A program made the position numbers and the translations under genes. Below, piece after piece: positions 10,751 through 62,002 of a stretch of DNA of 64,000 nucleotides. Position 1 is the first letter of the stretch. Every line of letters starts with the position of its first letter. The notes below the pieces were generated by a model, which worked only from the letters and a program-made list of their open reading frames with translations, was not told the origin of the DNA and ran no database searches. The DNA comes from a virus, in the IMG/VR virus record IMGVR_UViG_3300010883_000017, positions 1 through 64,000 of that record; one strand, given 5' to 3'.

Positions 10751-10832
10751 CCAAAGGTTAGCGAAGAATAGCAAAGTGAGGTTGCGGCTAGTTATGCGTG
10801 GGTGTGAAATTTCGTGCATTGTTTAGCAAGTG

Positions 10833-10876: not shown

Positions 10877-10932
10877 TGCAGTGAAGAGAGACTAGAAGTG
10901 CAAATCCAAGTAACACAAGGCAAAGTAGGACA

Positions 10933-11481
10933 ATGAATATCTGCCATGAGCACGAGTTCATACTATGGGCACACCCGAGAACCGCAGCGCGTTTTGTATA
11001 TTCTGCGCTGCGGAACCGCGGAAGCATGGGTCCTCTCACGCATCGAACCGGTGTTCCGATAGACGGCGCTGGTTACAGTGTTGTTTGCACGGTGCGCAAT
11101 CCCTATACGCGAATGCTATCTGCGTGGAAGTGGACGAATGCGGTGGGAAAGCAGCGGTACTCGCCGGAGAGTTTTACGGAGTTTGTAAGAAAGCACACGC
11201 CGTTATGGGGGTTACCGCCGATTTCAAAGGACCTGGGCCACAAGTTGAAGATGGTCAAATACTTTGTGCGCACAGAGTCGATTGAGAAAGACTTACGCGC
11301 ACTCCCCTGGGTTCCGGACACACATTCGTTCCCCAAGAATACGTACTGTAGTAATTATAAGGGCTACACTCCGACCGCTTTGTATGACGAAGAAGCACAA
11401 GAGAAAGTTCGCCGGTTGTATTGCGGAGATTTTGCAGAGTTCGGATACGATCCAGATGTGATTCCCGCAACGTTTTATTAA
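10933..11481 (+). CDS. Sulfotransferase-family protein
   Basis: The 182-residue protein has the two PAPS-binding signatures of sulfotransferases: HPRTAARFVYSALR (residues 14-27, 5'-phosphosulfate loop) and TVRNPYTRMLSAWKW (about 53-67, 3'-phosphate motif). A C-terminal YDEEAQEKVRRLYCGDFAEF helix also fits the sulfotransfer families. The usual Lys of the first loop is replaced by Arg/Thr-type residues, so activity needs testing. The acceptor could be a surface glycan, given the sugar genes downstream. It is flanked on both sides by members of the hairpin array. Confidence 0.75.
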   Translation: MNICHEHEFILWAHPRTAARFVYSALRNRGSMGPLTHRTGVPIDGAGYSVVCTVRNPYTRMLSAWKWTNAVGKQRYSPESFTEFVRKHTPLWGLPPISKDLGHKLKMVKYFVRTESIEKDLRALPWVPDTHSFPKNTYCSNYKGYTPTALYDEEAQEKVRRLYCGDFAEFGYDPDVIPATFY

Positions 11482-11494
11482 CGAAAGAAGGACA

Positions 11495-11755
11495 ATGAGA
11501 GTAACGGAGATTTCTGTAGAAGTAGGCAGAACTGCCACCATTAATTACCAGAGCGCGCGCAACTCAGTTGGTCTTACAGCCACCCTAGCGGCTGATGACC
11601 ACGCGCCTACCGCGATCCGCTCGTTACAAAAGCAAGCCGTAGATATGCTTCTAGGTGACAACGAACAATTTCGGGACGCCGAAAATGTGACTTCTGTGGA
11701 TGCGGAGAGCCTAGATGCGGCTATTCGTGCAGGGGCGGAGTCTCGCGAACACTGA
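11495..11755 (+). CDS. Conserved small phage protein, 86 aa
   Basis: ATG 11495 follows AGAAGGAC. The opening pattern MRVTEISVEVGRTATINYQSARNS and the later ALQ-like helix resemble a small protein seen in many phages, of unknown function. The fold is probably a beta sheet followed by a helix. It is the last coding gene before the non-coding hairpin array. Confidence 0.6.
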   Translation: MRVTEISVEVGRTATINYQSARNSVGLTATLAADDHAPTAIRSLQKQAVDMLLGDNEQFRDAENVTSVDAESLDAAIRAGAESREH

Positions 11756-11877
11756 TTTACCGTGGGTAACGGGCAAATACTTTGTTATCCATAACAGGAT
11801 TTTTGATCTAAGTCGTGCCCCGTAGTGTGGAGAGGATCTAAGAGGACTACCGCCGACAACAGGAAGTACGGTATGCA

Positions 11878-11921
11878 TCCTTGGCGTGCAGAAATGTGCG
11901 CCAGGGGTTTTTTGATCTAAG
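11878..11921 (+). repeat. Array hairpin member 2
   Basis: The 12-bp stem CCTTGGCGTGCA (11879-11890) closes a GAAA loop and pairs with TGTGCGCCAGGG, followed by a T run and GATCTAAG. A flanking T-G pair extends it to 30 nt (11878-11907). The G-T pairs keep the helix intact despite sequence change from the other members. Confidence 0.75.
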
Positions 11922-12038
11922 GCCAGTCTTGAGGAACGAAGTTCGGGAAAGTCTCGATGAGTTTACTTGTGTACTGCCAATTTTAGTTCGCAATAGTGAT
12001 GGAAAGCGGTGCGGATTTTAGCGCGGCGTAGTACAGTG

Positions 12039-12082
12039 CCCCCGCCATGTGGAAACGCGTGGCGGGGGATTTTTGATCCAAG
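12039..12082 (+). repeat. Array hairpin member 3
   Basis: A 13-bp stem (12039-12068) pairs CCCCCGCCATGTG with CGCGTGGCGGGGG around GAAA, with tail ATTTTTGATCCAAG. The outer nine pairs are all Watson-Crick. Confidence 0.8.
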
Positions 12083-12194
12083 GGAAGAGGCGCAAAGGGG
12101 TACCAAGTTGAGCTCCGCATACAAACGCTTAGAACTCGGCAGTACAGCGAGGGATAGCGCTGCGCAGCGATGCGTAGACTAATGTAAGTAAGCA

Positions 12195-12238
12195 TCCCTG
12201 TCGTATGGAAACATGCGCCAGGGATTTTTTGATCTAAG
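12195..12238 (+). repeat. Array hairpin member 4
   Basis: The stem 12195-12224 pairs TCCCTGTCGTATG with CATGCGCCAGGGA around GAAA with a single mismatch, followed by a six-T run and GATCTAAG. Confidence 0.75.
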
Positions 12239-12320
12239 AAATAGCAAAGCAGCGTACGGGCATGATCACTCATAACAAGTCGAGCGCACTCTAGGTGTGT
12301 GCGGTATACAAGAGTAACAG

Positions 12321-12364
12321 CCCCCGTCATGTAGAAATGTGTGACGGGGGATTTTTGATCTAAG
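12321..12364 (+). repeat. Array hairpin member 5
   Basis: The stem 12321-12350 pairs CCCCCGTCATGTA with TGTGTGACGGGGG around GAAA, tail ATTTTTGATCTAAG. Compared with member 3, a G-C pair becomes A-T within the outer helix, a compensatory change. Confidence 0.8.
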
Positions 12365-12444
12365 CCGGGTAGGGTAGAGGGATGCTCGGTAAATACCAGC
12401 CGGGACAAGTGTGGCCGTCAAGTGCGGGCTCAGTTAAGTTAGCG

Positions 12445-12488
12445 CTTCCGTCGTGCAGAAATGTGTGGCGGGGGATTTTTGATCCTAG
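12445..12488 (+). repeat. Array hairpin member 6
   Basis: The stem 12445-12474 pairs CTTCCGTCGTGCA with TGTGTGGCGGGGG around GAAA through several G-T pairs, tail ATTTTTGATCCTAG (the only tail with CTAG in place of YAAG). Confidence 0.7.
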
Positions 12489-12568
12489 GAAAGAGCCGTT
12501 GTGGCAAGTGGAGAGGAGCCCAGACCAGCATCGTATAGTAGCGCTCGGTCAAGCTCGGGATACCTTAG

Positions 12569-12602
12569 CCCGCGTAATCAGAGATGGTTGCGCGGGTATT
12601 TT
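12569..12602 (+). terminator. Terminator-like hairpin just before tRNA-Glu
   Basis: An 11-bp stem, CCCGCGTAATC with GGTTGCGCGGG, closes a six-base loop and is followed by TATTTTT. The tRNA begins three bases later. It lacks the GAAA loop and GATCYAAG tail of the array members, so it is a separate type. A terminator this close upstream of a tRNA would cut tRNA expression unless the hairpin serves in processing. Confidence 0.65.
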
Positions 12603-12604
12603 TG

Positions 12605-12677
12605 GCCCCGTTCGTCTAGTGGACTAGGACACCGGCTTCTCAAGCCGGGAACAGGAGTTCAATTCTCCTACGGGGTA
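12605..12677 (+). tRNA. tRNA-Glu (anticodon CTC)
   Basis: A 73-nt cloverleaf: acceptor GCCCCGT with ACGGGGT (first pair G-T), D arm, anticodon stem CCGGC/GCCGG with loop TTCTCAA giving anticodon CTC, and T arm AGGAG-TTCAATT-CTCCT. Discriminator A is followed by CA, not CCA, so the 3' end must be added by the CCA-adding enzyme. It is directly followed by TTTTGATCCAAG, the same tail as the hairpin array. Confidence 0.9.
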
Positions 12678-12772
12678 CATTTTGATCCAAGTGGAGTCGA
12701 TATTACCGGTGTATAGGGGAGGCTAGTCCTGCAACGAGCAGTTCTGCGTCGCTCAGATAACCAGACTAGTGG

Positions 12773-16085: not shown

Positions 16086-16682
16086 ATGGCGACCACGGAA
16101 ACGGCACAAACCCCGGCGCTAGCCACGCCAGTTGAAGTTCGATTTAGAGCTGCAACAGGTTCGCGCTTTAATAAAGCAGATGCTGAACGAATTGGGCCCG
16201 AACTACTGCGGCTGAAGAAGCACCACGGAGTTCTTACCAAGGATCTACTTGTACAAAAGGCGCAGAGCGCCCGCTCGATCTTGCATGCTGATTTTAATTG
16301 GGATGACGCAACAGCTGCGCATGCCCACCGATTGGAGCAAGCACGTTACATACTGCGGTCCATCATGATTGTGTGGGATGAGAGCACACCTGATGGCGGT
16401 GTCGAGCAGGTGTCTACGCGCTTGTTCCACAGTGTCCGCGTGAACAGCGATGATGAGGATGCCCCAACAAACCGCGGTACCCGCAGTCAACGCGTACACG
16501 TCACGTTTCGAGATGTGGTTGAGAACCCGGAATACGCTCAACAGGTCATCGATTCTATGGAACGAGCAGTAGTGCGGTTGGATGCACGATTTCGGTTTTA
16601 TTTGGATAAAGTTCCAATGTTTGCCGAAAGGTACCAGGGACTTTTTGACGAGATTACCGCCTTGGAAGATAACATAGACTAG
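16086..16682 (+). CDS. Unknown conserved helical protein, 198 aa
   Basis: ATG 16086 follows AAGGAGGTAGCT, a strong ribosome-binding site. The protein is helical, with RFNKADAERIGPELLRLK and an aromatic/His region LHADFNWDDATAAHAHRLEQ. A C-terminal amphipathic helical region follows. Its conserved look suggests a phage housekeeping protein, but I cannot name the family. It precedes the structured leader region. Confidence 0.6.
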   Translation: MATTETAQTPALATPVEVRFRAATGSRFNKADAERIGPELLRLKKHHGVLTKDLLVQKAQSARSILHADFNWDDATAAHAHRLEQARYILRSIMIVWDESTPDGGVEQVSTRLFHSVRVNSDDEDAPTNRGTRSQRVHVTFRDVVENPEYAQQVIDSMERAVVRLDARFRFYLDKVPMFAERYQGLFDEITALEDNID

Positions 16683-17125
16683 TTGTAGACTAGTTATCGG
16701 TCGTGGCTACTTGAGGAACTATCGTTGACAGTCCTGCACTGTGCCAGACGTTAATCGGCCCCGTGAGTGTTATTTTTGTCACTGCGGGTGTCAAATTTGA
16801 CACTCACGGGTACTCGGTGCGTTATTTTCAGTAAAAACTAAGTATTTGGTCGTACCCAGCTAGCACGTAGATAACATCAATATTCGTTGATACGTGTACT
16901 TCTTGTAAATTTCGTCAACAATTATGATTTTGGCTTAAACCATTAGAAATAAAGGAGTTACGTGGGGTCTAGAGGCCGACCGCTAGGGAGGCGTCTTTAG
17001 ACCCACAACACCCCACAGGGTGTTAATAGCATAACTTTTATGCTATTGCGATTTGACACTTTCGGGCACTTCGCCTGATTTTGCGGGCACTTCGCCCGAA
17101 AAGCACTGCAAGGAGGGTTCCCACA
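16683..17125 (+). promoter_or_regulatory. Structured non-coding leader region with alternative stems and a leader ORF
   Basis: No ordinary gene fits in these 443 bases. Features in order: TTGACA at 16725-16730 with a GTTAAT at 16750 (spacer 19, weak promoter match); inverted repeat ACAGT-N5-ACTGT (16729-16743); an 11-bp stem pairing 16760-16770 with 16800-16810 that competes with the palindrome GTGTCAAATTTGACAC (16788-16803) and with a shorter CCCG/CGGG stem; a 12-codon ORF at 16962-17000; stems AACACCC/GGGTGTT and AATAGCATAA/TTATGCTATT; and a repeated GGGCACTTCGCC(T/C)GA. This looks like a long 5' leader with mutually exclusive structures ahead of the 17126 operon. Confidence 0.55.
16962..17000 (+). 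CDS. Possible 12-codon leader peptide
   Basis: AAAGGAG (16951-16957) precedes GTG 16962 by a good distance. The short frame encodes MGSRGRPLGRRL and stops at TAG 16998-17000, just before two stable hairpins. It could be a translated leader peptide that controls the downstream stems, or the remnant start of a lost gene. There is no independent proof that it is translated. Confidence 0.35.
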   Translation: MGSRGRPLGRRL

Positions 17126-18524: not shown

Positions 18525-18781
18525 TGGCAAAAAAGCGGCAACGAAAGAAGAAGATACATGTGAATATGCATATTATTAGGAAGAATACTAAGGAGGGCAC
18601 GGCGGAACCGCCGATTACCGTTAAATGTGGTAGGGAAAACCACTACTGTAGCGAAGCCGAGATTCTTGGTATTTCCAAGTTGGTATACTCTCCGCATAGT
18701 CCGCTACTGAGTTGCGGGGCGCGGCTGGTTTTGGAAACCAAGGCATCTGTTGTTATGGATAACACAAAGGTTGTTGAGTGA
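18524..18781 (+). CDS. Unknown conserved small phage protein, 85 aa
   Basis: The start overlaps the upstream stop by one base. A very basic N-terminus (AKKRQRKKKIHVNMHIIRKN) is followed by beta-rich sequence with SCGARLVLET near the end. The layout matches small phage proteins I recall but no function is known. Confidence 0.55.
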   Translation: MAKKRQRKKKIHVNMHIIRKNTKEGTAEPPITVKCGRENHYCSEAEILGISKLVYSPHSPLLSCGARLVLETKASVVMDNTKVVE

Positions 18782-19146
18782 ATAGAAATGACGATATTCC
18801 GGGCGCCAACTACGTAGAGAAGGGTTGGGGCCACGAGAAGTGGATTGTGAATACCCCTGAGTATTGCGGGAAGATTCTTCATGTGAAAAAGGGGAAGCGT
18901 TGTTCATGGCACTATCACCGGCTTAAAGACGAGACGTTTTATGTCCAGTCTGGGCGCGTGATGGTGTTCATCGGTGAGGGCAACAACGAGGAACAGGCTG
19001 AGATGCTCGTACTAGAGCCCAGCGACTCGTTGCATATCCCGCCAGACACGCGGCACTTCTTCTTCGCACTCAGCGATGTGGACATCTTTGAATTCAGCAC
19101 GCATCATGAGGACAACGATTCGATTCGCATTACTAAAGGAGATTGA
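18778..19146 (+). CDS. Cupin-domain protein (mannose-6-phosphate isomerase-like)
   Basis: The 122-residue single cupin starts YVEKGWGHEKWIVN, typical of type II phosphomannose-isomerase-like cupins. Metal ligands are visible in CSWHYHRLKDETFYVQSG (His, His, Glu) and in the second motif SLHIPPDTRHFFFA. It probably binds a divalent metal and acts on a sugar or small molecule, which fits the nucleotide-sugar genes downstream. GTG 18778 overlaps the previous gene by four bases. Confidence 0.75.
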   Translation: MNRNDDIPGANYVEKGWGHEKWIVNTPEYCGKILHVKKGKRCSWHYHRLKDETFYVQSGRVMVFIGEGNNEEQAEMLVLEPSDSLHIPPDTRHFFFALSDVDIFEFSTHHEDNDSIRITKGD

Positions 19147-19149
19147 GCT

Positions 19150-19524
19150 GTGGTTAACCGCGAGCCCACTATTTACGTAGCAGGGCCTATGCGCGGCCAT
19201 GCGGACTTCAATCATCCAGCTTTTGATCGCCAGTCTAAGGTGTTGCATAGCCAGGGCTGGGTAGTGATCAACCCTGCTGATATGGATAGGAGCGTCCCCG
19301 GGGCTTTCGCCGTGGGCCTGGATGATCCCGAGTTCTTACGGGACGCGTTACGCCGTGACATCATAGAGATCTGTAACAAGTGCACGGCAATCTACATGAT
19401 GAGTGGCTGGGAAAGCAGCAGGGGCGCCAAGGCCGAGTGGGCGATTGCCAAAGCCCTGGGCCTGGATATTTACTACGAGGCACCACTACCACGAGTGAGA
19501 ACTGAAGTTGGTCCCAAGCAGTAA
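19150..19524 (+). CDS. DUF4406 / nucleoside 2-deoxyribosyltransferase-like protein
   Basis: The 124-residue protein begins with IYVAGPMRG and has MMSGWESSRGAKAEWAIAKALGLDIYY near the end, the two signatures of DUF4406. This group is related to nucleoside 2-deoxyribosyltransferases, which act on nucleosides or nucleotides. GTG 19150 follows AAAGGAG. A nucleotide-salvage or nucleotide-modifying role is likely from the family. Confidence 0.8.
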   Translation: MVNREPTIYVAGPMRGHADFNHPAFDRQSKVLHSQGWVVINPADMDRSVPGAFAVGLDDPEFLRDALRRDIIEICNKCTAIYMMSGWESSRGAKAEWAIAKALGLDIYYEAPLPRVRTEVGPKQ

Positions 19525-19536
19525 AGGAGTACTGCG

Positions 19537-19749
19537 ATGGCGAAGAAGAAGAAGAGGAAAGCGCAGGTTGAGACGCGGACGCATTACGCTACGCGTGCAC
19601 TTTCAGATAATAAAGAGCGAGTTTGTTTACGGTGTAGCAGACTTTTTAAATCTCTGGGACCGGGTAATCGGGTGTGCCAAGCGTGCACAACTGCTAATAA
19701 GACTGTGCAGATAACACAACGTTATACGCATATGCATGAAGAGGAGTAA
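19537..19749 (+). CDS. Small zinc-knuckle protein, 70 aa (paralogue 1)
   Basis: A Lys/Arg-rich N-terminus is followed by VCLRCSRLFKSLGPGNRVCQAC, a two-CxxC zinc knuckle around a GxGNR turn. The same CLRC...GxGNRxCxxC motif occurs at 28987-29211, so the phage has two paralogues. Probably binds nucleic acid; no specific role known. ATG 19537 follows AAGGAG. Confidence 0.65.
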   Translation: MAKKKKRKAQVETRTHYATRALSDNKERVCLRCSRLFKSLGPGNRVCQACTTANKTVQITQRYTHMHEEE

Positions 19750-19753
19750 GACA

Positions 19754-19936
19754 ATGCGATGGGCGGAAGACGACGAGCGCGTGCGTGATGAGGTTGAGTC
19801 CACTGTTGATGAGCTTATCGACGCCGGATTTGCTGAATCGTTTCTTGGTGAAGATGGGGACGTCAGGTTCCGACTTACTCCTGCGGGAAGAGAGCAGGCT
19901 AGGGATATTATAGGGAAAACGGAGGAAGATGAGTGA
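19754..19936 (+). CDS. Small winged-helix-like protein, 60 aa
   Basis: ATG 19754 lies 8 bases after GAGGAG. The pattern VDELIDAGFAESFLGEDGDVRFRLTPAGREQAR looks like the end of a winged-helix domain (helix, wing, LTPAGR). The stop overlaps the RT start by four bases, so it leaves no room for a retron RNA between them. It may be co-expressed with the RT. Confidence 0.5.
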   Translation: MRWAEDDERVRDEVESTVDELIDAGFAESFLGEDGDVRFRLTPAGREQARDIIGKTEEDE

Positions 19937-20706
19937 TTAATTGGTCAGACTGGGTGGCGCGGGAGTATAACGTGTATCCCATGGTCACTGGCCAGAAGAC
20001 GCGTTGGATCGAAGCTCCCAGCGAGGAACTTAAAGAGATACAGCGTTTGCTGCTGGATACCTTGTTATACAAGCTTGAACCGACAGAGTATGCGCATGGG
20101 TTTGTACCCGGCCGCTCGATCGTTACTAACGCCAGCTGTCATGTTGGCAAGAAGTGGGTACTTACAGCGGATATCAAGAACTTCTTTCCCTCGGTGACGA
20201 AAGCCCAGGTTATTGATGTGCTTGCGCCGTTGGAGCTCGCGCCGGAGCGCCAGGCTATCATCGTGGAGCTAGCGACTCTGCGCGGGCATCTACCGCAAGG
20301 AGCCCCGACCAGCCCGCATTTGGCTAACCTGGTTGCAGGGTGGTTGGACATTAGATTGGCAGCAATGTGTCGCCGTGACGTTATTACGTATACGCGATAC
20401 GCTGATGATTTAGCTTTTTCTGGTTATGAGGGTAGCCCACATTGGATGCTATCCGTTATTGAGCGCACAGTTGCTGAATGCGGCTTTCAGCTGGCTCGTG
20501 ATAAAACTCATATCATGACTGCTAACCAGCGACAGATGGTTACTGGGTTAGTTGTTAATGAAAAGGTAGCGCTACCTAAAGGTAAGCGGCGTATACTACG
20601 TGCTATGTTGCACAGGTTGCATTGCAGCGAGGTCGTTGACCTGGAGCAGCTTAAGAAAGTACAGGGCCATGTGGCAATGGCGAGATTGGTTGAAACAGGG
20701 GGATGA
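19933..20706 (+). CDS. Retron-type reverse transcriptase
   Basis: The 257-residue protein carries the RT core in order: ADIKNFFPSV (about residues 79-88), LPQGAPTSPHLANL (120-133), YTRYADDLAF with catalytic YADD (156-159) and AECGFQL (181-187). It also has both retron hallmarks: NASCH, matching the NAxxH X-region (66-70), and VTG (203-205) in VTGLVVN, the Y-region. The QGxxxSP motif excludes diversity-generating retroelements. It is somewhat shorter than typical retron RTs, with a short thumb. No msr-msd RNA space exists beside it: it overlaps the previous gene by four bases and the next starts three bases later. It should make msDNA-like cDNA if a trans RNA template exists. Confidence 0.85.
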   Translation: MINWSDWVAREYNVYPMVTGQKTRWIEAPSEELKEIQRLLLDTLLYKLEPTEYAHGFVPGRSIVTNASCHVGKKWVLTADIKNFFPSVTKAQVIDVLAPLELAPERQAIIVELATLRGHLPQGAPTSPHLANLVAGWLDIRLAAMCRRDVITYTRYADDLAFSGYEGSPHWMLSVIERTVAECGFQLARDKTHIMTANQRQMVTGLVVNEKVALPKGKRRILRAMLHRLHCSEVVDLEQLKKVQGHVAMARLVETGG

Positions 20707-20709
20707 GTA

Positions 20710-21072
20710 ATGGCTAAAGTAAACAAGCTGAAGGGAATGAAGCTGTATAACTATTTGTGCACGATCGATCGCGTAATTGATGGCGATACCGTGGACGTGA
20801 TTGTTGACATGGGCTTTTACTTGAAGCAGACGGTTCGTATTCGTTTATTGAATGTGAACACTCCTGAGCGAGGCGAAGATGAGTGGAGCATTGCTACGGA
20901 GGCGCTTAAGGATTTGATTAAACAAGGGGAAAAAGTTGATAAGAATTTTTGGCTTAGTACCCACAAAACCGGTAAATTTGGTAGATGGTTGGGGATGTTG
21001 GTTTCTTATGATAAAGAGATCGCTATTAACCTAACCATGGCTGACCGCTGGCCCTCGAAGTGGGGAGAGTGA
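20710..21072 (+). CDS. Thermonuclease/SNase-like protein
   Basis: The 120-residue protein has the SNase motif TIDRVIDGDTVDVIVDMGF, then VRIRLLNVNTPER (Arg and Glu of the active site) and a later HKTGKFGRWLG carrying a conserved Arg. These enzymes cleave DNA or RNA with calcium. It is shorter than secreted staphylococcal nuclease and has no signal peptide, so it would act inside the cell. It lies immediately after the RT gene. Confidence 0.75.
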   Translation: MAKVNKLKGMKLYNYLCTIDRVIDGDTVDVIVDMGFYLKQTVRIRLLNVNTPERGEDEWSIATEALKDLIKQGEKVDKNFWLSTHKTGKFGRWLGMLVSYDKEIAINLTMADRWPSKWGE

Positions 21073-21084
21073 GGAGTACACGTG

Positions 21085-21231
21085 ATGTGTGATCAGGAAG
21101 AGCACAATCAGAAAGATGATGCGCAAAGCAGTTGTTCTGCTGATACCGGCTGGCAAATACAGGAAGAAGTAATTAGATGGATGACAGAGGGGACAGATCC
21201 TCACATGTCACCAAGATCGGATTGTGGATAG
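21085..21231 (+). CDS. Unknown small acidic protein, 48 aa
   Basis: ATG 21085 follows GAGGAG, with an adjacent in-frame GTG at 21082, and the frame closes at TAG 21229-21231, sharing one base with the next GTG start. The peptide is Asp/Glu/Gln-rich with a single CxxE-like start and a Trp-rich middle. Gene-like spacing on both sides is the main support. Confidence 0.45.
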   Translation: MCDQEEHNQKDDAQSSCSADTGWQIQEEVIRWMTEGTDPHMSPRSDCG

Positions 21232-21803
21232 TGATTGACCTTGTGCTTATAGATATGGATGGAGTGCTGGCGGACTTCGCACGGCACGCGCTAGCCAAGT
21301 TTGATCGGCTGGACGTTTATGACAACTGGCCTGCGGGCAAGTACGAAATTGACGAGATCGTAGGGATTCCGCAGGATGAGTTCTGGGCAGAGCTCGATAA
21401 AGAAGGGCCGGAATTCTGGTCTAGTTTGCCGGTGTTGCCGTGGGCCGCTGAGTTATGCTCACTGGCGCGTGAGAAGGTTGGTAATTTCCACATCTCTACG
21501 TCGCCAAGTCGGGCTCCCGCATCCAGCATGGGCAAGGTACACTGGTTGCAGCAGTTCTTTGATCCGCGCTTTCGTCGGTACATGTTGGGCAGCCACAAGC
21601 ATTTGATGGCGAAGCCTGGCGTGGTTTTGATTGACGACAGCGATGCAAAGTGTGAAAAGTTCATTGAGGCAGGCGGTGGCGCTATTTTGTTTCCGCAGCC
21701 GTGGAACAGTAACTACGATCAAATCGATGCCCGGAAACCGTACGGTAGCCGCCTGGCTTTCGTAGAAAACCAGCTCGACGAGATCAGTAATCGAGGGCAC
21801 TGA
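21231..21803 (+). CDS. HAD-superfamily phosphatase (deoxyribonucleotidase-like)
   Basis: The 190-residue protein has the HAD nucleophile motif IDMDGVLADF (D8, D10) right at the start, a Thr/Ser-type motif HISTSPSR near the middle, and VVLIDDSDAKCEKF near the end as the Mg-binding motif. PEFWSSLPVLPWA resembles 5'(3')-deoxyribonucleotidases. It probably dephosphorylates nucleotides. GTG 21231 overlaps the upstream stop and puts the motif at the N-terminus. Confidence 0.75.
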   Translation: MIDLVLIDMDGVLADFARHALAKFDRLDVYDNWPAGKYEIDEIVGIPQDEFWAELDKEGPEFWSSLPVLPWAAELCSLAREKVGNFHISTSPSRAPASSMGKVHWLQQFFDPRFRRYMLGSHKHLMAKPGVVLIDDSDAKCEKFIEAGGGAILFPQPWNSNYDQIDARKPYGSRLAFVENQLDEISNRGH

Positions 21804-21805
21804 CT

Positions 21806-22738
21806 ATGCGTAAGGGCATTATCTTGGCAGGTGGTCGTGGCACACGGTTGTTTCCCGCAACGATTGCGGTAAGCAAGCAACTGCTGCCCATCTACGATAA
21901 GCCCATGGTTTACTACCCGCTTACGACGCTCATGCTTAGCGGCATTAAAGACGTGCTCATTATTACGACACCTCGTGATCGGGATTCGTATTGGAGTGTG
22001 TTGTCAGATGGCGCCGACTGGGGCATCAATATTGAGTACCGGATACAGGATGCACCGCGCGGTATTGCTGAGGCGTTCATAATCGCTGAAGAGTGGTTGG
22101 ATGGTGCGTCGTGTAGCTTGATCCTGGGAGACAATATTTTCTACGGAGATAAGCTGGCAGATAGATTGCGCACGGTTAGCGAATTGCAGGGGAGCACTAT
22201 ATTTGCGTACAGGGTTCCCGACCCACGTGAATACGGAGTAGTTGAGTGCGACGAAGCCGGTACGGTAATCTCTATTGAGGAGAAACCAACGGAGCCTAAA
22301 TCTAATTACGCTGTAACAGGGTTGTATTTTTACGGGCCGGACGTTGTTGATGTTGCAAAAAGTGTAGCGGCGTCGAAGCGCGGAGAATTAGAAATTACGG
22401 ATGTGAATCGCGTCTATATGGAGCGCGGGGAGCTTAACGTAGTTAACCTGGGACGGGGCACCGCCTGGTTTGATACCGGCGCACACGATGCGATGCTTAC
22501 TGCATCTACGTTTGTTCAACTAATGCAGCAGCAACAAGGAACTTTGATTGGATGCCCGGAAGAAGTTGCGTGGAGGATGGGTTGGATCACGGATGAAGCG
22601 CTGCTTAAATTATCTCGGGTGTATAGCGCGAGTGGTTACGGTGCTTATTTAGCAGCATTATTGGAAGATGAAGCAGGGCCGTCCTCGGGGCCGTTAGCGG
22701 ATCTTGTTGTTGGGTCGGCACGAGGCCGTGCGTCGTGA
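21806..22738 (+). CDS. rmlA: Glucose-1-phosphate thymidylyltransferase
   Basis: The 310-residue protein matches RmlA: LAGGRGTRLFPAT (residues 7-19), SKQLLPIYDKPMVYYPL, LILGDNIFYG, VVECDEAGTVISIEEKP and GTAWFDTGAHDAML. It makes dTDP-glucose from dTTP and glucose-1-phosphate, the first step to dTDP-deoxysugars. The C-terminus is slightly longer than in cellular enzymes. With the RmlB-like protein downstream, the phage can make a dTDP-4-keto-6-deoxy sugar; RmlC and RmlD are not in the window. Confidence 0.9.
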   Translation: MRKGIILAGGRGTRLFPATIAVSKQLLPIYDKPMVYYPLTTLMLSGIKDVLIITTPRDRDSYWSVLSDGADWGINIEYRIQDAPRGIAEAFIIAEEWLDGASCSLILGDNIFYGDKLADRLRTVSELQGSTIFAYRVPDPREYGVVECDEAGTVISIEEKPTEPKSNYAVTGLYFYGPDVVDVAKSVAASKRGELEITDVNRVYMERGELNVVNLGRGTAWFDTGAHDAMLTASTFVQLMQQQQGTLIGCPEEVAWRMGWITDEALLKLSRVYSASGYGAYLAALLEDEAGPSSGPLADLVVGSARGRAS

Positions 22739-22812
22739 GTGCGGTGGGTGTCCTCCTACTTGCTGTGGTCCCCGGATCACGGTAAGTGACCGAGTACCTC
22801 CTTTCCTCGGAT

Positions 22813-22841
22813 AAACTAGGTACGGTCACCGTCCTAGTTTT
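22813..22841 (+). terminator. Hairpin with TTTT tail after rmlA
   Basis: AAACTAGG (22813-22820) pairs with CCTAGTTT (22833-22840), with an inner ACGGT/ACCGT stem, ending in TTTT. A TATAAT at 22847-22852 follows closely, so the same place may hold a terminator and a promoter; no good -35 box was found for it. Confidence 0.55.
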
Positions 22842-22910
22842 CGCGTTATAATGCCAGGCGCGTCCCTAACCACGACGGCATTTATTTTAAACTCCAGGGA
22901 GGGGGATTCG

Positions 22911-23072
22911 ATGGGCGTTATCGCGCTAGTATTCGGGATTCTGCTGTATCTCGTTGTAGCTTACGATTTTTATAGCAAAAAGAATTACTCGTTAATGATA
23001 GTATTTATTTGCTATGCGTTAGCGAACATTGGATTTATCATGGCTGCACTTAAGAGCGGAAAGGATTTATGA
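22911..23072 (+). CDS. Small two-helix membrane protein, 53 aa
   Basis: ATG 22911 follows AGGGAGGGGG. Two hydrophobic segments (VIALVFGILLYLVVAYDFY and LMIVFICYALANIGFIMAA) are joined by a short Lys-rich turn, giving a hairpin membrane protein. No family recognised. Confidence 0.6.
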   Translation: MGVIALVFGILLYLVVAYDFYSKKNYSLMIVFICYALANIGFIMAALKSGKDL

Positions 23073-23344
23073 TGAGATATTTTAAAGGTCGAGGAGCAAA
23101 AGATACAAAGATTCTTAATGCGTATCTTGATATACGTCATAAAATGAAAGAAGCGGAGAAGTTGCTGGTTGAGCTGATCGAGCACCCTGGGTTCGATGAT
23201 GCACTGGCAGCTGGGCCGGGGTTTAAAGCAGTACGCGAAGCGGCGCAGGACCGCCGGGCTAAGGTAGCTAAACTAGAGCTTGTGTTAGCTAAGCTCGGGT
23301 TATCGGACATGGGGTTTAAGTATGTCGACGGAGATAAAAAATGA
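23069..23344 (+). CDS. Unknown helical protein, 91 aa
   Basis: The start lies in an ATGATGA overlap with the upstream stop. The protein is almost entirely helical and charged (HKMKEAEKLLVELIEHPGF, then AAQDRRAKVAKLELVLAKLG), possibly a short coiled coil. No family recognised. Confidence 0.55.
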   Translation: MMRYFKGRGAKDTKILNAYLDIRHKMKEAEKLLVELIEHPGFDDALAAGPGFKAVREAAQDRRAKVAKLELVLAKLGLSDMGFKYVDGDKK

Positions 23345-23963
23345 CGAATTTTTCTGCACACAATGTGCTGGGTGCTGCCACAAGAAGAACCTAAGGCAGT
23401 ATAATCTTGAGCATTGGAACATTACGATCGGCGAGGATGGCTATTGTTCCCACCTTAAGGACAAAGTGTGCACGATCTATGAAGATCGTCCTCTGATCTG
23501 TCGTGTCGGTGAGTTGTACGATAGGGTCGACGAGATTAGAGATATTGAACCGCAGCTGGTCGCCCTTATTGATAAGGTGAAGAGCATGGTTCCTGATAAC
23601 CCTAAGTTGGAGTACTTTAAGGTTGCTAATATGGGGTGCAACTACCTGATTAAAAGGTTGCACCTTGGATCTGCGTATTTTATTAATGTAGATAAAGTTT
23701 ACACGGAGGTTGATAAGAAGCCCGCGATGATCGATAAACCAAAGCGCGAGACAAAAAAAGAGGACCGTATCGATAAGAAAAAGAGTAAGCGGGATTATAG
23801 GATTGAGAAGATAAAGGCTGTTACGGCTAAGGCGCTTGCAGTTGCAAAGAAACGTAAGTGGCTCGTTTTTCTCATTGGTATTGGGATTGCTGCTTACTTC
23901 GTTATGTCTAGCGGTAATTTCAGCGGTGTGCTTGAAACGATAAAAGGCTTATTCGGGAGCTAA
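23322..23963 (+). CDS. YkgJ-like Fe/Zn-binding cysteine-cluster protein with C-terminal membrane helix
   Basis: The N-terminal domain has the YkgJ signature: FFCTQCAGCC (about residues 10-19), a further YCSHL, and VCTIYEDRPLICRVGE (about 48-63). Such clusters bind zinc or iron-sulfur centres. A long Lys-rich linker leads to a single membrane segment (WLVFLIGIGIAAYFVM) near the C-terminus, so the Cys domain would be anchored at a membrane. The start overlaps the upstream gene by 23 bases. Role unknown. Confidence 0.7.
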   Translation: MSTEIKNDEFFCTQCAGCCHKKNLRQYNLEHWNITIGEDGYCSHLKDKVCTIYEDRPLICRVGELYDRVDEIRDIEPQLVALIDKVKSMVPDNPKLEYFKVANMGCNYLIKRLHLGSAYFINVDKVYTEVDKKPAMIDKPKRETKKEDRIDKKKSKRDYRIEKIKAVTAKALAVAKKRKWLVFLIGIGIAAYFVMSSGNFSGVLETIKGLFGS

Positions 23964-23974
23964 CTTGATGACTT

Positions 23975-25282
23975 ATGCGTGATTGGGAAAAACTGCACGC
24001 CGAGGCCAAGGTTTTTGATTTGCATGTGCACCCAGGGTTGAAAGCATCCCTATTCAGTAAAGACCTGGCGAAGAGCCGCTTACCTATACTCAAGATGTTT
24101 TCTAAGTCTACGTGGCCAATGACCACCCGCTCTGACTTTCCTAAGATGGAGGCCGGAGGGCTTGATGCGGCTTTTGAAACCACGTACGCGACAGAGCAAG
24201 GGTGGCTTGATGATCTTCCAATTCTTAAGTGGGTGAAGTGGATCAAGCCGTCCGTTTGGCGGCAGTTCTTTGTGCCCACGTATTTCGACACCACCATGGC
24301 CACCATGGACCTGGTGGAAGAGCAGGCGCAGAGTTACACAAATACGAACTTTAATGCGTCGCACCACGCGTACGCGAAGTACCGGCGTCCTGTCAGATTT
24401 GCTACGGGCGTTTCTGAGCTTAAAGAGTTGCTTAGCACAGACGCTATTTGTCTTGTTCGCGCCATCGAGGGCGCGCACAGTTTGCAGCATGAGTTTATTG
24501 GCAAAGACCCTATTGATGATGCGCGTTGGGCAGACTCGTCCTGGTTGCAGCAAGCCGAGAACGAACTTCTTACGAGCCTTCAGACATTTTGGGATCGCGG
24601 GGTCGCGTCTCTTACTCTTGCCCACTTTTATCCAAATGCGTGTGTTAACCCGGTATTTCCATACCCGGAGCATGCGTTTAAGTTTGCTAAGAAAAAGCGA
24701 GGGGGCGTAGATTTTCTTGATCGCTGGGATCACAATAAGGGCTTAACGCCCCTTGGTGAAACCATCGTTGAGAAAATGCTTGAGCTGGGGATGCTTATAG
24801 ACGTATGTCATTGCACACCAAGAGCACGTGCGCGTATCTATGAGATTGTCGACCACCACGGCGCTACTTCGTGTGTGCATTGTTCGCACACAGGGGCGCG
24901 GGCCATTAACAACGACCCATACAATCTTTCCGATTGGGAAATTCAGTGGATTGCGAATCACGGCGGTGTTATCGGTATCATCTTTATGAACTACTGGTTG
25001 TCACCGGATGAGTCAAATCTTGGGATGAAGTATATACTCAACACGCTTGAGCATTTACGTCGTATTGGTGGCGAGGATGTTATTGGAATTGGTACTGACT
25101 TTGATGGTTTTACAGATCCTCCGGATGAACTAGAGGATATGTCTAAGCTACCGAGGCTAACCCGGGCGTTGGCAAGCGAATATGCCGGGATTGAGGCAGC
25201 GAGTTATTCTGATGATGTCATCAGAAAATTTTTAGGTGGCAATGCTCTCCGGGTTCTTTTCGAAGGCTGGGGGCGGGCTTAA
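23975..25282 (+). CDS. Membrane dipeptidase (peptidase M19 family)
   Basis: The 435-residue protein has M19 metal-site landmarks in order: VFDLHVHP (about residues 13-20), AIEGAHSLQ (Glu, about 161-169), GLTPLGETIVEKMLELGMLI (about 255-274) followed by DVCHCTPRAR, CVHCSHTGAR and GIGTDFDGF. The first motif reads H-V-H where most members have H-x-D, a ligand change. M19 enzymes cleave dipeptides including D-amino-acid forms, so peptidoglycan peptides are possible targets. There is no signal peptide. The gene sits within the sugar module. Confidence 0.8.
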   Translation: MRDWEKLHAEAKVFDLHVHPGLKASLFSKDLAKSRLPILKMFSKSTWPMTTRSDFPKMEAGGLDAAFETTYATEQGWLDDLPILKWVKWIKPSVWRQFFVPTYFDTTMATMDLVEEQAQSYTNTNFNASHHAYAKYRRPVRFATGVSELKELLSTDAICLVRAIEGAHSLQHEFIGKDPIDDARWADSSWLQQAENELLTSLQTFWDRGVASLTLAHFYPNACVNPVFPYPEHAFKFAKKKRGGVDFLDRWDHNKGLTPLGETIVEKMLELGMLIDVCHCTPRARARIYEIVDHHGATSCVHCSHTGARAINNDPYNLSDWEIQWIANHGGVIGIIFMNYWLSPDESNLGMKYILNTLEHLRRIGGEDVIGIGTDFDGFTDPPDELEDMSKLPRLTRALASEYAGIEAASYSDDVIRKFLGGNALRVLFEGWGRA

Positions 25283-25303
25283 TGATAAAGAAGGGATTCA
25301 CTA

Positions 25304-26311
25304 ATGAGGATTTTAGTTACTGGAGCCACGGGCTTTATTGGTAGCGCGTTTGTTCGTAGTTTTTGGAATAGACTGGCTGCTGAGGATAGTGTTGCGAGAG
25401 AGCATACGGTTGTGGGCTTTGCGCGCAACACTGTGATGAAGAATCAGCGGCGGTTACCTAGGCCGGCAGGCCCTGGTGAGCTCCCCGGGGAGAGACCAGT
25501 TCCAGATCAATTTGAGTTGATATACGGAGATCTCCTGGGAGATATCTCCGGCATCTGCGAGAAGGTAGACGCTGTTGTTCATTTTGCAGCGAGAACCTTT
25601 GTTGATCACGCGATTAAAGATTCTCAACCGTTTGTTGAGAACAACGTGATCGGTACGCTGCGTCTTCTTGAGGATGCGCGCAGAAATGGTGTGAAACGTT
25701 GGATTCAAATTAGTACTGATGAAGTGTACGGGTCCATACTGGAAGGGGCGTATTCGGAGAACTCTCCGGTTAACCCCACTAATCCGTACTCTGCGAGTAA
25801 GCTAGGTGCGGATGCCCTGGTTATTTCTTACGCACATACCCATGGGATGAACACCAGCGTGATACGGACCGAAAACAATTATGGTCCTTACCAGCACGTT
25901 CAAAAAGCGCTTCCGACGTTTACTAAAGCAGCGCTTAGTGACGAAAAACTTCCCGTGTATGGGGATGGATTACATGTACGGCAGTGGCTCCATGTAGATG
26001 ACCACGTACGTGCAATTTGGATGCTATTACACGCTGAGGTTGAGCCTGGTCAAATTTGGCATGTTGCAGGCTGCCAAGAGCTCACTAATAATGAGCTGGC
26101 CGAGATTATTTTGGGCGCGTGTGATAAGCCTGTGGACAGGATCAAATATATTGACGACCACGATATACGCCCGGGGCACGATCGCCGTTACGCGCTTGTG
26201 TGTGACAAGATGAAGAACGAGATCGGGTGGGAGCCTGAGATCGGACTTCAAGAGGGTCTTCGTGATACCGTTCATTGGTATCGGGATAATCGTTGGTGGT
26301 TAGACTGGTAG
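25304..26311 (+). CDS. rmlB: dTDP-glucose 4,6-dehydratase-like NAD-dependent epimerase/dehydratase
   Basis: The 335-residue short-chain dehydrogenase has the NAD loop GATGFIGSAF (residues 7-16), VVHFAARTFVDHAI, STDEVYGSI, the catalytic YSASK and the substrate motif RTENNYGPYQ, with VRQWLHVDDHVRA and IRPGHDRRYAL near the C-terminus. These match RmlB, which turns dTDP-glucose into dTDP-4-keto-6-deoxyglucose. With RmlA upstream this forms a two-step pathway. Related GDP- or UDP-sugar dehydratases are possible but less likely. Confidence 0.85.
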   Translation: MRILVTGATGFIGSAFVRSFWNRLAAEDSVAREHTVVGFARNTVMKNQRRLPRPAGPGELPGERPVPDQFELIYGDLLGDISGICEKVDAVVHFAARTFVDHAIKDSQPFVENNVIGTLRLLEDARRNGVKRWIQISTDEVYGSILEGAYSENSPVNPTNPYSASKLGADALVISYAHTHGMNTSVIRTENNYGPYQHVQKALPTFTKAALSDEKLPVYGDGLHVRQWLHVDDHVRAIWMLLHAEVEPGQIWHVAGCQELTNNELAEIILGACDKPVDRIKYIDDHDIRPGHDRRYALVCDKMKNEIGWEPEIGLQEGLRDTVHWYRDNRWWLDW

Positions 26312-26318
26312 AAAGAGT

Positions 26319-27323
26319 ATGGCTTATGATGCGGAGTTTAGGGCTGAATTTGTTCCGGGGCGGTATCGCGATGTGGTGGCGCGCGAGGCGGTACTGTACC
26401 CGGTAGTTAATTTTGATAGGCGTGGTCGCCATACAGATTCTCGGATTATTTCCGCTACGAAGACGGCGGTCAGTATGTGGCGCGCTCGCGTCCTGGAACT
26501 ACGCGATCATGGGTGGATAACTGCGCAAGGTGCCCGCCTACCGGCCACGCTGGCGTCGACTGGCGGGGGCCCTGTTGATTACATGCGAAATTGCCGCCCT
26601 AATTTCGTTTCTATGTACCCCCGAACGCGCCCCTGTAAGGCTTGGCACGCTTGCCCTTTTTGCTGGGCCCGCATGGTACAGGGCATTTATGACAGGGTAG
26701 ATGCTGCGTTTCCTGACACATCCTTAGTTGTTGATGACGTACCGGGCAGATCCGGCACGTCTACAGATGGCGAGGTTAACTCCGGAGTACTGGCTGCTGG
26801 GGAGCGGAAGCGGCGCTCCATTGTGATGAATATGGACGATGTGCGGGTTGCTGCTGATGGTAAGCGTCGTCGAATGAGTTCGCTTTCTTCGCGCGATTTC
26901 CCGTATCACATGGTTACTGTTTGTATGCGGAGCGCTTACTCCGCGCGGGAGAGTCTTCCTAACTTGGTTGATAGCTTTTGCAATTCCCGAGGACGTATAC
27001 GTGCAATCCCGTTTACGGGGGCGTCGGTCCTTACAACCGTGGAATACAGAACTAATCAGTGGCATTTGTCACATAGGTACTTACTCATGCTTCCGCCGGA
27101 TGTTGACGTGCCGCTGTCATTTTCAGAGGCACCAGGGTATCGCCGACTCGAGCAACCTACTCGGCGATTAGTAATGGAAGCTGTTGCACGAACCTGTAAG
27201 TATCCTCGTGCTTTGTTGGTAGGGGATCCGCAGTATTACGTTAGAATTCTTCATGCGATCAATGGCAGGCGTCTTCGTGCGTTGTACGGCTGCTTTAGAA
27301 ACACGAGGCAATATGGACAATAG
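26319..27323 (+). CDS. Cys-motif protein, possibly a diverged Rep-type protein
   Basis: The 334-residue protein has CKAWHACPFCWARMV (about residues 107-121), an FPYHMVTVCMRSAYSA strand and TTVEYRTNQWHLSHRYLLML near 238-258. This order (Cys box, HMVTV strand, then an Arg/His strand) recalls rolling-circle Rep proteins, where the third motif holds HxH. Here it reads HLSH, so the metal site would be altered. This is a visual resemblance only. It sits between rmlB and a deoxyhypusine-synthase-like gene. Confidence 0.45.
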   Translation: MAYDAEFRAEFVPGRYRDVVAREAVLYPVVNFDRRGRHTDSRIISATKTAVSMWRARVLELRDHGWITAQGARLPATLASTGGGPVDYMRNCRPNFVSMYPRTRPCKAWHACPFCWARMVQGIYDRVDAAFPDTSLVVDDVPGRSGTSTDGEVNSGVLAAGERKRRSIVMNMDDVRVAADGKRRRMSSLSSRDFPYHMVTVCMRSAYSARESLPNLVDSFCNSRGRIRAIPFTGASVLTTVEYRTNQWHLSHRYLLMLPPDVDVPLSFSEAPGYRRLEQPTRRLVMEAVARTCKYPRALLVGDPQYYVRILHAINGRRLRALYGCFRNTRQYGQ

Positions 27324-28314
27324 GTTTAATACGGCTGGGCTTTCTTTAAAGCCTTTGTCACAAAGAAAGTCGAAACTCAGTGTTAACGATTTAGTACTTC
27401 CAAAGTTTTTGCATCCGTCGGTGGCTGGGGCGGCCGCGGAGTGCGCTGCTCGCTATCTCGCAGAGAAGATACGCGAGGCAAAAGAGACCGATCGTAAAGT
27501 CATACTTTTCATGGGCGCGCATCTAATTAAGCTGGGGCTCACGCGATACATCACTGATCTTATCTTGAATGGATATATCGATCACGTGGCTACCAACGGG
27601 GCCTGCGCTATTCATGACTTTGAATTGAATACGCACGGAGAGACCAGCGAGGATGTGCAAACGTACATCGATAATGGTCAGTTTGGTCTCTGGGAAGAGA
27701 CATCTAATTTGAATGAGGTTGTCGCGGCGGCGTACCAGGGCGGTATTAATTGCGCCGAGCCTTATTCGCCCGGAGCGGGCCATTCGATCGGGACGTGGTT
27801 ATATCACAACGAGGGCGCGAGCCCGGAAACGTCTATTTTTGCTGCGTGTCATAAAATGAATGTGCCGATAACGGTTCACATTCTTATTGGTGGTGATATA
27901 AATCACTCTCATCCCAACTTTGATGCTGCAGCGTGGGGCGTCTGCTCTTACAATGATTTTCTTATCTTTGCGGAATCCCTTAAAGGACTCCATAAAGGTG
28001 GTGTCTTTTTGAATGTGGGGTCGGCAGTACATGGCCCCGAGATATTCTTGAAAGCATTGAGTATGGTTCGTAATGTCTCTTTATGTGAGCAGTTTACAAC
28101 AGGGGTTTTTGACTTTGCAGATCTTCCGTCATCCTGGCGAGATTTCGAACCACATCCGGCAACCCCGCTATACTATTTTCGCCCATGGAAAACACTGTTG
28201 ATGCGGACGAGCAAGGGCGGCCATAGCGAGTACGTAGGCGGCAACTTTACAAATACGATTCCTTTACTTTGGGGTACGATCAACGGATTAGGAGATTTCG
28301 ATGGCGACAATTGA
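27313..28314 (+). CDS. Deoxyhypusine-synthase-like protein of unknown role
   Basis: The 333-residue protein has MGAHLIKLGLTRYITDLILN, then IDHVATNGACAIHDFELNTHG and TSEDVQTYIDNGQFGLWEET, like a DHS-type Rossmann fold seen in uncharacterised bacterial proteins. Later motifs include ITVHILIGGDINHSHPNF, rich in His, suggesting metal or nucleotide binding. A phage would not need hypusine; the neighbours (rmlB, hldE) suggest a sugar-nucleotide reaction. The start overlaps the upstream stop, and GAGG precedes ATG 27313. Confidence 0.5.
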   Translation: MDNRFNTAGLSLKPLSQRKSKLSVNDLVLPKFLHPSVAGAAAECAARYLAEKIREAKETDRKVILFMGAHLIKLGLTRYITDLILNGYIDHVATNGACAIHDFELNTHGETSEDVQTYIDNGQFGLWEETSNLNEVVAAAYQGGINCAEPYSPGAGHSIGTWLYHNEGASPETSIFAACHKMNVPITVHILIGGDINHSHPNFDAAAWGVCSYNDFLIFAESLKGLHKGGVFLNVGSAVHGPEIFLKALSMVRNVSLCEQFTTGVFDFADLPSSWRDFEPHPATPLYYFRPWKTLLMRTSKGGHSEYVGGNFTNTIPLLWGTINGLGDFDGDN

Positions 28315-28969
28315 CGTTATTAACAAATTGAATCTATCTGACGAGAAGAAGCTGAAGTTACTGGCGCTGTACGTGGATCTTCCTGGCCTGGATGCCAGCT
28401 TCAAAGTGACGAGCCCGAGATCTTGCGATCTCCAGGACTTCATAGACGATGTCTTTAACGAGGACGAGCAACCCGCAGGAACCTGTTGTCCTGCGGGACC
28501 GCCTGGAGAACGCGGCGAGCCTGGCATACCTGATGAGGAAGATATTAAGACGCGGTACGACGAGCTCCTAGAGCCACTAGAGGACCTGGGGTTGGAGTTT
28601 GGGGTCGGCGAGGTGATTCAAGTTGAATCCGCGACCGAGAAGAGCACGGTTGTAAGTATTGATGTACCTAGTGTGCATTTAACAGACTGTATAGAGATTA
28701 TGAAAAAGTCGGGTGACTATGAACTACCGCCGCCTGGTACAACAATTCAGGGGATTGCACATGCTATTATTGGCGAGCCACCAGCTGCGTTTGCCGCGAT
28801 GTTGGTTAGCGCAGAAGGCGGCCCGTTTATCGATGCGTACCTTCAGAAGGATGAGGATATAATTTGTGAGCATAAGCCTATTCGAGATACAGAATTTCTA
28901 GAGAGCCGGGTTCGGATAAGCATGCGGTACGAAGATCGTATGTATGAGTTTGAGCTTACACCAACTTAA
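28301..28969 (+). CDS. Unknown protein with a short collagen-like segment, 222 aa
   Basis: Residues 60-78 contain CCPAGPPGERGEPGIP, a short Gly-X-Y stretch typical of collagen-like phage structural proteins. The rest is helical N-terminally and beta-rich later (VIQVESATEKSTVVSIDVPS). It overlaps the upstream gene by 14 bases. A virion-surface role would fit, but the Gly-X-Y run is short. Confidence 0.5.
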   Translation: MATIDVINKLNLSDEKKLKLLALYVDLPGLDASFKVTSPRSCDLQDFIDDVFNEDEQPAGTCCPAGPPGERGEPGIPDEEDIKTRYDELLEPLEDLGLEFGVGEVIQVESATEKSTVVSIDVPSVHLTDCIEIMKKSGDYELPPPGTTIQGIAHAIIGEPPAAFAAMLVSAEGGPFIDAYLQKDEDIICEHKPIRDTEFLESRVRISMRYEDRMYEFELTPT

Positions 28970-28986
28970 TAGAAGCAGGGGCACGG

Positions 28987-61231: not shown

Positions 61232-61304
61232 CTCCTTGCTGAAGGGTGGTGGTGGGGAATCGGAAACCCGTACCCCTCGCCATCACCCACTTTTATACAA
61301 CTGG

Positions 61305-61338
61305 CCTCGGAGGGTGTTTCGCCCTCCACGTGAAGAGG
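61305..61338 (+). repeat. Two-copy RNA motif, copy A
   Basis: Outer pairing CCTC/GAGG, inner stem GGAGGG/CCCTCC with loop TGTTTCG, then ACGTGA. Copy B at 61621-61660 has GGAGAG/CTCTCC with the identical loop and ACGTGA. Confidence 0.65.
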
Positions 61339-61531
61339 TAGTCGGACCAGGTCCTCACACGACCTCGCTCCGCGACGCCGCGCAGGACTTGGTCCTACGA
61401 TCGGCATATTGAAAGCATGGAGGCGCCCTGATTCACCTAACAGTGATGAAGGGCGTCCCTGGTGCTTTCCACCCTACAAGCCCCGGAGAGGTCGCTCCTC
61501 CCACGCTCCGAAAGGCGGGCGTCCGGGCAAA

Positions 61532-61618
61532 GGCCGAGTGGCGGAACTGGCAGACGCTCAGGACTTAAAATCCTGTGTCCTCACGGACGTGCGGGTTCGA
61601 GTCCCGCCTCGGCTACCA
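61532..61618 (+). tRNA. tRNA-Leu (anticodon TAA) with encoded CCA
   Basis: Class II tRNA: acceptor GGCCGAG with CTCGGCT (first pair G-T), TGGCGGAACTGGCAGACGC D arm, anticodon stem CAGGA/TCCTG with loop CTTAAAA giving anticodon TAA, a long variable arm (TGTCCTCACGGACG region) and T arm GCGGG-TTCGAGT-CCCGC, ending in A-CCA (61615-61618). It reads UUA and UUG codons. Confidence 0.92.
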
Positions 61619-61620
61619 TA

Positions 61621-61660
61621 AACCTCCGGAGAGTGTTTCGCTCTCCACGTGATGGGGGTT
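61621..61660 (+). repeat. Two-copy RNA motif, copy B
   Basis: Outer pairing AACCTCC/GGGGGTT, inner stem GGAGAG/CTCTCC with loop TGTTTCG, then ACGTGA. Relative to copy A one G-C pair is A-T, and the outer helix differs in sequence but still pairs. Confidence 0.65.
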
Positions 61661-61810
61661 TCCCCGGGCCATCCGCTGGTTTCGCTACGCGAAAACGCAG
61701 CTACTGGCCCCGGGGACCAGGTGCGATTGGAGCATAAGGGGTGACGAGCCACAGCTATCGGGACATTAGTCCCGGGACGCCTAGGGTTCGTTGCCCCTAA
61801 ATTGCTCCCT

Positions 61811-62002
61811 CCCATCACACACGAGGTTTCTGCGCAGCTTGTTCGCTGCGCTCACTGCGCTGCGACGCTGCAGCCGGAGCTGCCGGCCTTCCGCGGCATT
61901 CTAAGCATAAGGGACGGCGGAGTGCCGGGGACAGTCTCCTCGCGCATAAACCGCCGTCCCGGATTGCTTTCTTTCAATTTTCCCGTTATGGGGTATTCTG
62001 TT
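61811..62002 (+). other. Non-coding gap with a GC-rich inverted repeat
   Basis: This 192-base stretch between the RNA island and the next small ORF has no convincing gene; the longer frame from 61802 is not supported. It contains GGGACGGCGG (61911-61920) and CCGCCGTCCC (61951-61960), a perfect 10-bp inverted repeat around a 30-base loop. Confidence 0.5.

Follow-up and report, generated by a model that had tools for sequence, protein, structure and literature searches.

Retron RTs are described as tied to a neighbouring template RNA, the msr-msd, which is 200-300 nt long. The RT of Retron-Eco1 recognises a stem of 8 bp capped by a UUU loop (PMC6868368, PMC11754653), and this loop is functionally constrained (PMC11754653). 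The msr-binding part of the RT in Eco1 and Eco3 is region Y (PMC6868368). Retron-Nex1 (Ne160) includes msr-msd-like copies that have no RT within a kilobase, and the Ec73 element in phiR73 places a retron RT on a phage-like element (PMC6868368). As for type X retrons, no experimental paper was found in the literature searched.

The RTs nearest to the one described here are encoded in three planctomycete genomes, L083, L084 and L085 (58%, 53% and 56% identity, respectively). We found two further genomes with a type X RT, L250 and L251, by searching the planctomycete order. The frequency of type X is low; it was found in 5 of 170 genomes of the order and, by the partner gene, in 1 of 392 genomes of a phylum sample. 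IHF-VHL_X, which is the PADLOC type X partner, is located upstream of the RT in both genomes scanned at the protein level (L084 and L085). The L083 genome also matches the IHF-VHL_X profile, and a similar ORF, judged by eye, lies upstream of the RT in L251. In L085, tandem HTH proteins are encoded upstream of the RT (2463-3572 and 3663-4919; 58 and 245 bits with IHF-VHL_X), suggesting that the partner gene is duplicated in this genome. All five bacterial genomes carry one ncRNA downstream of the RT (Table 1), 5-81 nt past the stop codon where the stop is readable. The 5' part of this ncRNA consists of a1, (T/C)AGC, a GGUUUC hairpin and a near-invariant CCUCCUUGGGCGUUUCGCCCCGGGA hairpin, which has one C in L250. 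After this hairpin follow GUCCUUCGC, a long msd hairpin, GCUCCGGA(A/U)CGU and a2. The type X hairpin sequence is GGGCGUUUCGCCC. The a1 and a2 sequences differ between two type X subgroups, with their pairing preserved. These five ncRNAs could seed an RNA family and serve as a reagent for type X retrons.

We analysed a window of 64,000 nt from a large uncultivated virus of bacteria, positions 1 to 64,000 of the virus record IMGVR_UViG_3300010883_000017 (IMG/VR), the full length of which is 73,848 bp. ORF 19933-20706 on the + strand is, judged from its sequence, an intact retron RT of type X. It starts with GTG and encodes 257 aa in an intact frame, and all the retron RT motifs are present: NASCH (residues 66-70), TRYADD (154-159) and VTG (203-205). 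The protein matches RVT_1 in Pfam (1.4e-18) and retron_St85_RT in NCBIfam (7e-60, under the curated cut-off of that model). In PADLOC it matches RT_X with 330.9 bits (1.4e-99), while the second-best model scored 241 bits. The AlphaFold (AF2) model has a pLDDT of 93.9 and, among PDB structures, resembles the Ec86 retron RT most closely (TM 0.88). A first-pass annotation of this DNA had pointed out the retron hallmarks of the RT and had named beforehand a position outside the retron clades as one of the results that would refute its reading. The hallmarks were confirmed by NASCH, YADD, VTG and the RT_X score, and in the tree the phage RT was nested within, not beside, the planctomycete type X clade with 100/100 support, on a long branch (0.54). 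Thus, YADD, NAxxH, VTG and the retron RT profile make the protein a retron RT, and the top RT_X score together with the placement in the clade makes it type X.

Region Y is among the best-conserved stretches of this RT. Against the five bacterial type X RTs, the identity of the phage RT is 81-84% in region Y and 53-62% over the whole protein. This suggests that msr binding by the phage RT is probably under selection and that this RT has probably kept the ability to bind a type X-like RNA, in trans. The bacterial type X RTs carry a C-terminal tail of about 17-45 aa, which is missing from the phage RT.

The neighbourhood of the RT is tightly packed. The upstream ORF ends at 19936 and overlaps the RT start by 4 nt, and the downstream ORF starts at 20710, leaving a gap of 3 nt after the RT stop. 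Because of this overlap and this gap, no msr-msd fits beside the RT, and the ORF boundaries thus bear out the first-pass view that the RT has no adjacent msr-msd. This is unusual for the clade, as the ncRNA lies shortly downstream of the RT in all five of the nearest bacterial relatives. The overlapping upstream gene, which encodes a small winged-helix-like protein, matches phrog_4278 (E=0.0013); its model has an H-E-E-H arrangement (pLDDT 76) and gave no significant match in a PDB search. The winged-helix-like and the nuclease-like neighbours had been put forward as effectors. Neither matched a PADLOC retron effector model, and IHF-VHL, the genuine type X partner, was not found in the 73.8-kb record even with E-values up to 10 allowed. 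An effector role for the two neighbours, which carry no retron-effector signature, is not supported. Two other retron-like RTs are found in large viral contigs (L058 9776-10795, in 178 kb, and L010 10001-10870, in 120 kb). Both overlap the upstream gene, and in L058 a gap of 5 nt separates the RT from the gene that follows; judging from these contigs, RTs with no space for an adjacent RNA may recur.

Table 1. Coordinates of the type X ncRNAs of bacteria and of the features discussed in the phage window
Feature	Sequence	Position	Strand	Remarks
Type X ncRNA	L083	3230-3515		downstream of RT
Type X ncRNA	L084	5882-6122		downstream of RT
Type X ncRNA	L085	5937-6221		downstream of RT
Type X ncRNA	L250	2694-2983		downstream of RT
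Type X ncRNA	L251	5022-5279		downstream of RT
Structured non-coding region	window	16680..17125	+	2.8 kb upstream of RT; fold z -5.5
DUF4406 / nucleoside 2-deoxyribosyltransferase-like gene	window	19150..19524	+	PF14359 1.8e-19, phrog_355 1e-28; operon-like run with RT
70-aa CxxC small protein	window	19537..19749	+	phrog_13335 3e-8
Small winged-helix-like protein	window	19736..19936	+	66 aa, or 60 aa from second ATG at 19754; overlaps RT start
SNase-like endonuclease gene, generic phage nuclease family	window	20710..21072	+	phrog_452 endonuclease 5e-26; weak thermonuclease matches
Candidate RNA 1	window	61240..61478	+	UUU-loop hairpin 61309-61327; weak terminal repeats 61240-61249 / 61469-61478; fold z -4.9
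tRNA-Leu (TAA)	window	61532..61618	+	between candidate RNAs 1 and 2; ARAGORN, Rfam RF00005
Candidate RNA 2	window	61617..61832	+	UUU-loop hairpin 61628-61646; terminal repeats 61617-61626 / 61823-61832; fold z -8.5

We searched the phage record for a template RNA in two ways. Model R1, a covariance model of the type X msr core built from the five bacterial sequences, gives a single strong match per genome in the five bacteria, always next to the RT and with 80-101 bits; across the 73.8-kb phage record, its best match reached only 10.6 bits. A descriptor that combines AGC at the a1 end, strong a1/a2 pairing, a UUU-loop hairpin and a structured insert recovers all five bacterial RNAs (-31 to -35 kcal/mol). 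In the phage record, it returned only background matches, the best at -22.3 kcal/mol, and did not report the 61-kb island described below. Both results show that a canonical type X RNA is absent from the visible record. With neither IHF-VHL nor an adjacent a1/a2 ncRNA downstream of the RT, the record does not hold a complete type X system. Furthermore, an Rfam search gave no match except two tRNAs, and the exact type X msr motif was not found in IMG/VR viral contigs. Several other leads were discarded. The pattern GTGTTTCGCNNNCCACGTGA gave a single match in IMG/VR, within a coding region, which was judged to be due to chance, and a 15-nt msr pattern with 3 mismatches matched at chance level. 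Duplex energy alone did not discriminate (1064 matches), and the strongest duplex of the record, the inverted repeat 49711-50031, was dismissed because it overlaps coding ORFs. We set aside the results of a less strict survey for ncRNAs next to other phage retron RTs, since it failed to recover known positives.

The absence of a canonical template from the visible record, together with the loss of the C-terminal tail and the location in a variable cargo block, might mean that the RT is no longer a retron enzyme but a remnant, either decaying or repurposed, or else a general polymerase with no dedicated msr-msd. We consider this unlikely, since the catalytic and retron motifs are intact, the full fold is predicted with high confidence, the frame is intact despite the long branch, and the conservation of region Y would be unexpected had RNA binding been lost. 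The main rival to the explanation preferred below, although we regard it as somewhat doubtful, is counter-defence: the RT would have been captured from a type X retron of a host and would bind the type X ncRNA of that host. The retron would then fail to trigger, either because more RT-msDNA antitoxin is made or because a dominant-negative complex forms, and an RNA of the phage would be unnecessary. Region Y is nearly unchanged relative to the five bacterial RTs, and the phage has neither the partner nor the ncRNA, which fits an inhibitor derived from a partial system. The Eco7 effector is neutralised by the RT and msr-msd together, not by the RT alone (PMC11555353). This implies that the phage RT would need, and could exploit, the RNA of the host. 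A phage antitoxin mimic against DarTG is also reported (PMC11481870). However, type X is rare in both the order and the phylum sample, the phage RT has no C-terminal tail, and a planctomycete as host is pointed to by the kinship of the RT only.

The RT lies in a part of the genome that varies among relatives. Nearly the entire window is collinear with G576, an 83-kb relative, but in place of the RT block (18.8-26.3 kb) G576 has about 3 kb of other genes, one of them deaminase-like. The larger cargo block (18778-31000), which is partly replaced in G576, contains cupin, DUF4406, nucleotidase, RmlA-like, M19 dipeptidase, epimerase and HldE-like sugar genes. The RT was absent from the 41 related records searched, which are fragments. 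A search for related loci with the DUF6551 gene at 12.8 kb found none. It missed the 53% homologue of this gene that G576 carries, indicating that such searches are not exhaustive. In summary, this phage lineage carries a type X RT in a variable cargo block, with neither the ncRNA nor the IHF-VHL neighbour beside it. The window also contains a phage-encoded CsrA at 602-790 (PF02599, 3.5e-21).

The three non-coding regions that had been named as structured at first pass are indeed so: 10.8-12.7 kb is a hairpin array, and fold z-scores for 16.68-17.12 kb and 61.2-61.8 kb are given in Table 1. The array (10826-12697) consists of six 51-nt hairpin units, 61-82% alike, that end in ATTTTTGATCYAAG. 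Four of the five spacings are 124-161 nt, with unique sequence in between. The tail motif of the array also follows tRNA-Glu (12605-12678), and the exact array motif GGGGGATTTTTGATCYAAG is absent from IMG/VR. The units are possibly tandem small RNAs or terminators. We rejected the array (10.8-12.8 kb) as a template because its repeated hairpins match neither the descriptor nor R1. The region at 16.68-17.12 kb was also rejected; it is folded, but it does not have the AGC/a1/a2/UUU arrangement and matches neither the model nor the descriptor. It includes long hairpins at 16760-16810 and 16962-17047, which lie in the 400 nt of intergenic sequence preceding ORF 17081 and are probably regulatory.

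Of the three regions proposed as possible sites of a template acting in trans, 61.2-61.8 kb is the best candidate, with paired UUU-loop hairpins and the top msr match of the record; it lacks an AGC primer at the a1 end, and no canonical arrangement of a1, AGC, UUU hairpin and a2 exists in the visible record. Two candidate RNAs surround a tRNA-Leu in this island (Table 1). They share a 31-nt repeat, CGGAGGGTGTTTCGCCCTCCACGTGAAGAGG in RNA 1 and CGGAGAGTGTTTCGCTCTCCACGTGATGGGG in RNA 2, which is 87% identical and shows one compensatory change, G-C to A-U. Each hairpin has a stem of 8 bp and a UUU loop, within the range of an msr hairpin (7-10 bp with a short loop), and the two are the only GUUUC hairpins of at least 7 bp on the + strand of the window. 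Each RNA is flanked by 9/10-nt terminal repeats; repeats of similar size also occur nearby by chance. A terminal stem is predicted for RNA 2 only (MFE and centroid); in RNA 1, a1/a2 competes with a stronger hairpin. AGC does not directly follow a1 in either RNA, and so the priming guanosine is not in place.

Of all stretches of the record, 61304-61324 agrees best with the type X msr consensus (17/21). Other phage DNA contains about two matches of this grade per 2.3 Mb, and 4 of 60 simulated genomes also had one, and thus the match by itself is suggestive only. Under simple nulls, the record-wide chance of this single 21-nt match is about 7%, location not counted. The structural and sequence tests on these RNAs are partly post hoc, as the region was first seen in the R1 match list. 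In a local alignment of the five whole type X RNAs with the phage, the island ranked 5 and 7 of 588 windows, which is background. In L253, a syntenic relative, the genes that flank the island are about 150 nt apart, showing that the island is a lineage-specific insertion of about 0.9 kb. No comparable paired hairpins were found in the portal loci of 67 relatives. RNAs 1 and 2 are the best visible template candidates for the RT, and plausible ones.

The lack of AGC priming would also agree with an ordinary msr-msd located in the unsequenced part of the genome, about 60%, the 61-kb RNAs then being unrelated structural RNAs of the phage. The search with the portal protein gave the 67 loci in IMG/VR, several of them in contigs of 150-230 kb, and distant cultured relatives by this protein have about 180-187 kb. 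Compared with relatives of about 150-230 kb, most of the genome is outside the view of the 73,848-bp record, and we estimate that about 40% of some 180-230 kb is visible. An msr-msd in the remaining part would still be a trans arrangement, which none of the five bacterial type X genomes shows, and the exact type X msr motif is missing from IMG/VR viral contigs. We think this explanation very unlikely.

The explanation that we prefer, tentatively and at somewhat less than an even chance, is that the RT acts in trans, with an RNA from another part of the phage genome. An active RT would bind, through region Y, the UUU-loop hairpin of such an RNA and would copy part of the bound RNA into DNA. The source of the RNA would be the two RNAs around tRNA-Leu (61.24-61.83 kb) or else the unsequenced part. 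The product might serve the phage, by host take-over or by exclusion of competing phages, rather than a tripartite defence of the bacterial kind. A more specific form, a split type X retron in which the RT of the cargo block is served in trans by two diverged template copies around the tRNA 41 kb away, with no bacterial effector, seems rather doubtful to us. We counted in favour of action in trans the type X membership of the RT, the single adjacent downstream ncRNA in all five bacterial genomes set against RT flanks with no space, the conservation of region Y, the intact motifs and confident fold, the compensatory change in the island hairpins, the 17/21 msr match, the insertion of the island and the absence of the RT from the related records. 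Against it, we counted the missing canonical RNA in 73.8 kb, the lack of AGC at the a1 end, the stronger hairpin that competes with a1/a2 in RNA 1, the background-level similarity of the whole RNAs, the chance level of the 21-nt match, the distance of 41 kb between the RT and the candidate RNAs and the fragmentary state of the related records. If a phage indeed retains the RT alone, with the RNA-binding region conserved, then either a retron can be divided and operate in trans, or the phage has turned half of a defence system against that system. A trans template, as the first-pass annotation had proposed, would be a new retron arrangement.

Among known systems, the planctomycete type X retrons are the closest, sharing the RT clade, the overall identity and region Y with the phage RT. 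They differ in that their ncRNA follows the RT (5/5) and their partner precedes it (L084 and L085), whereas the phage RT has neither beside it and has a shorter C-terminus. Retron-Eco1 (Ec86) has the nearest solved structure, and the stem of 8 bp and the UUU loop that are recognised by the Eco1 RT (PMC6868368) have the same shape as the phage hairpins at 61309 and 61628. However, the msr-msd of Eco1 is directly upstream of an RT of another type, and its effector is adjacent. Phage-borne retrons such as Ec73 in phiR73 are prophage cargo, whereas here an RT with no adjacent RNA is carried by a large phage that encodes replication genes of its own. Retron-Nex1 (Ne160) has repeats that are bacterial and chromosomal, while the phage RNAs are only candidate msr-msd, but it provides a precedent for a template that stands apart from an RT.
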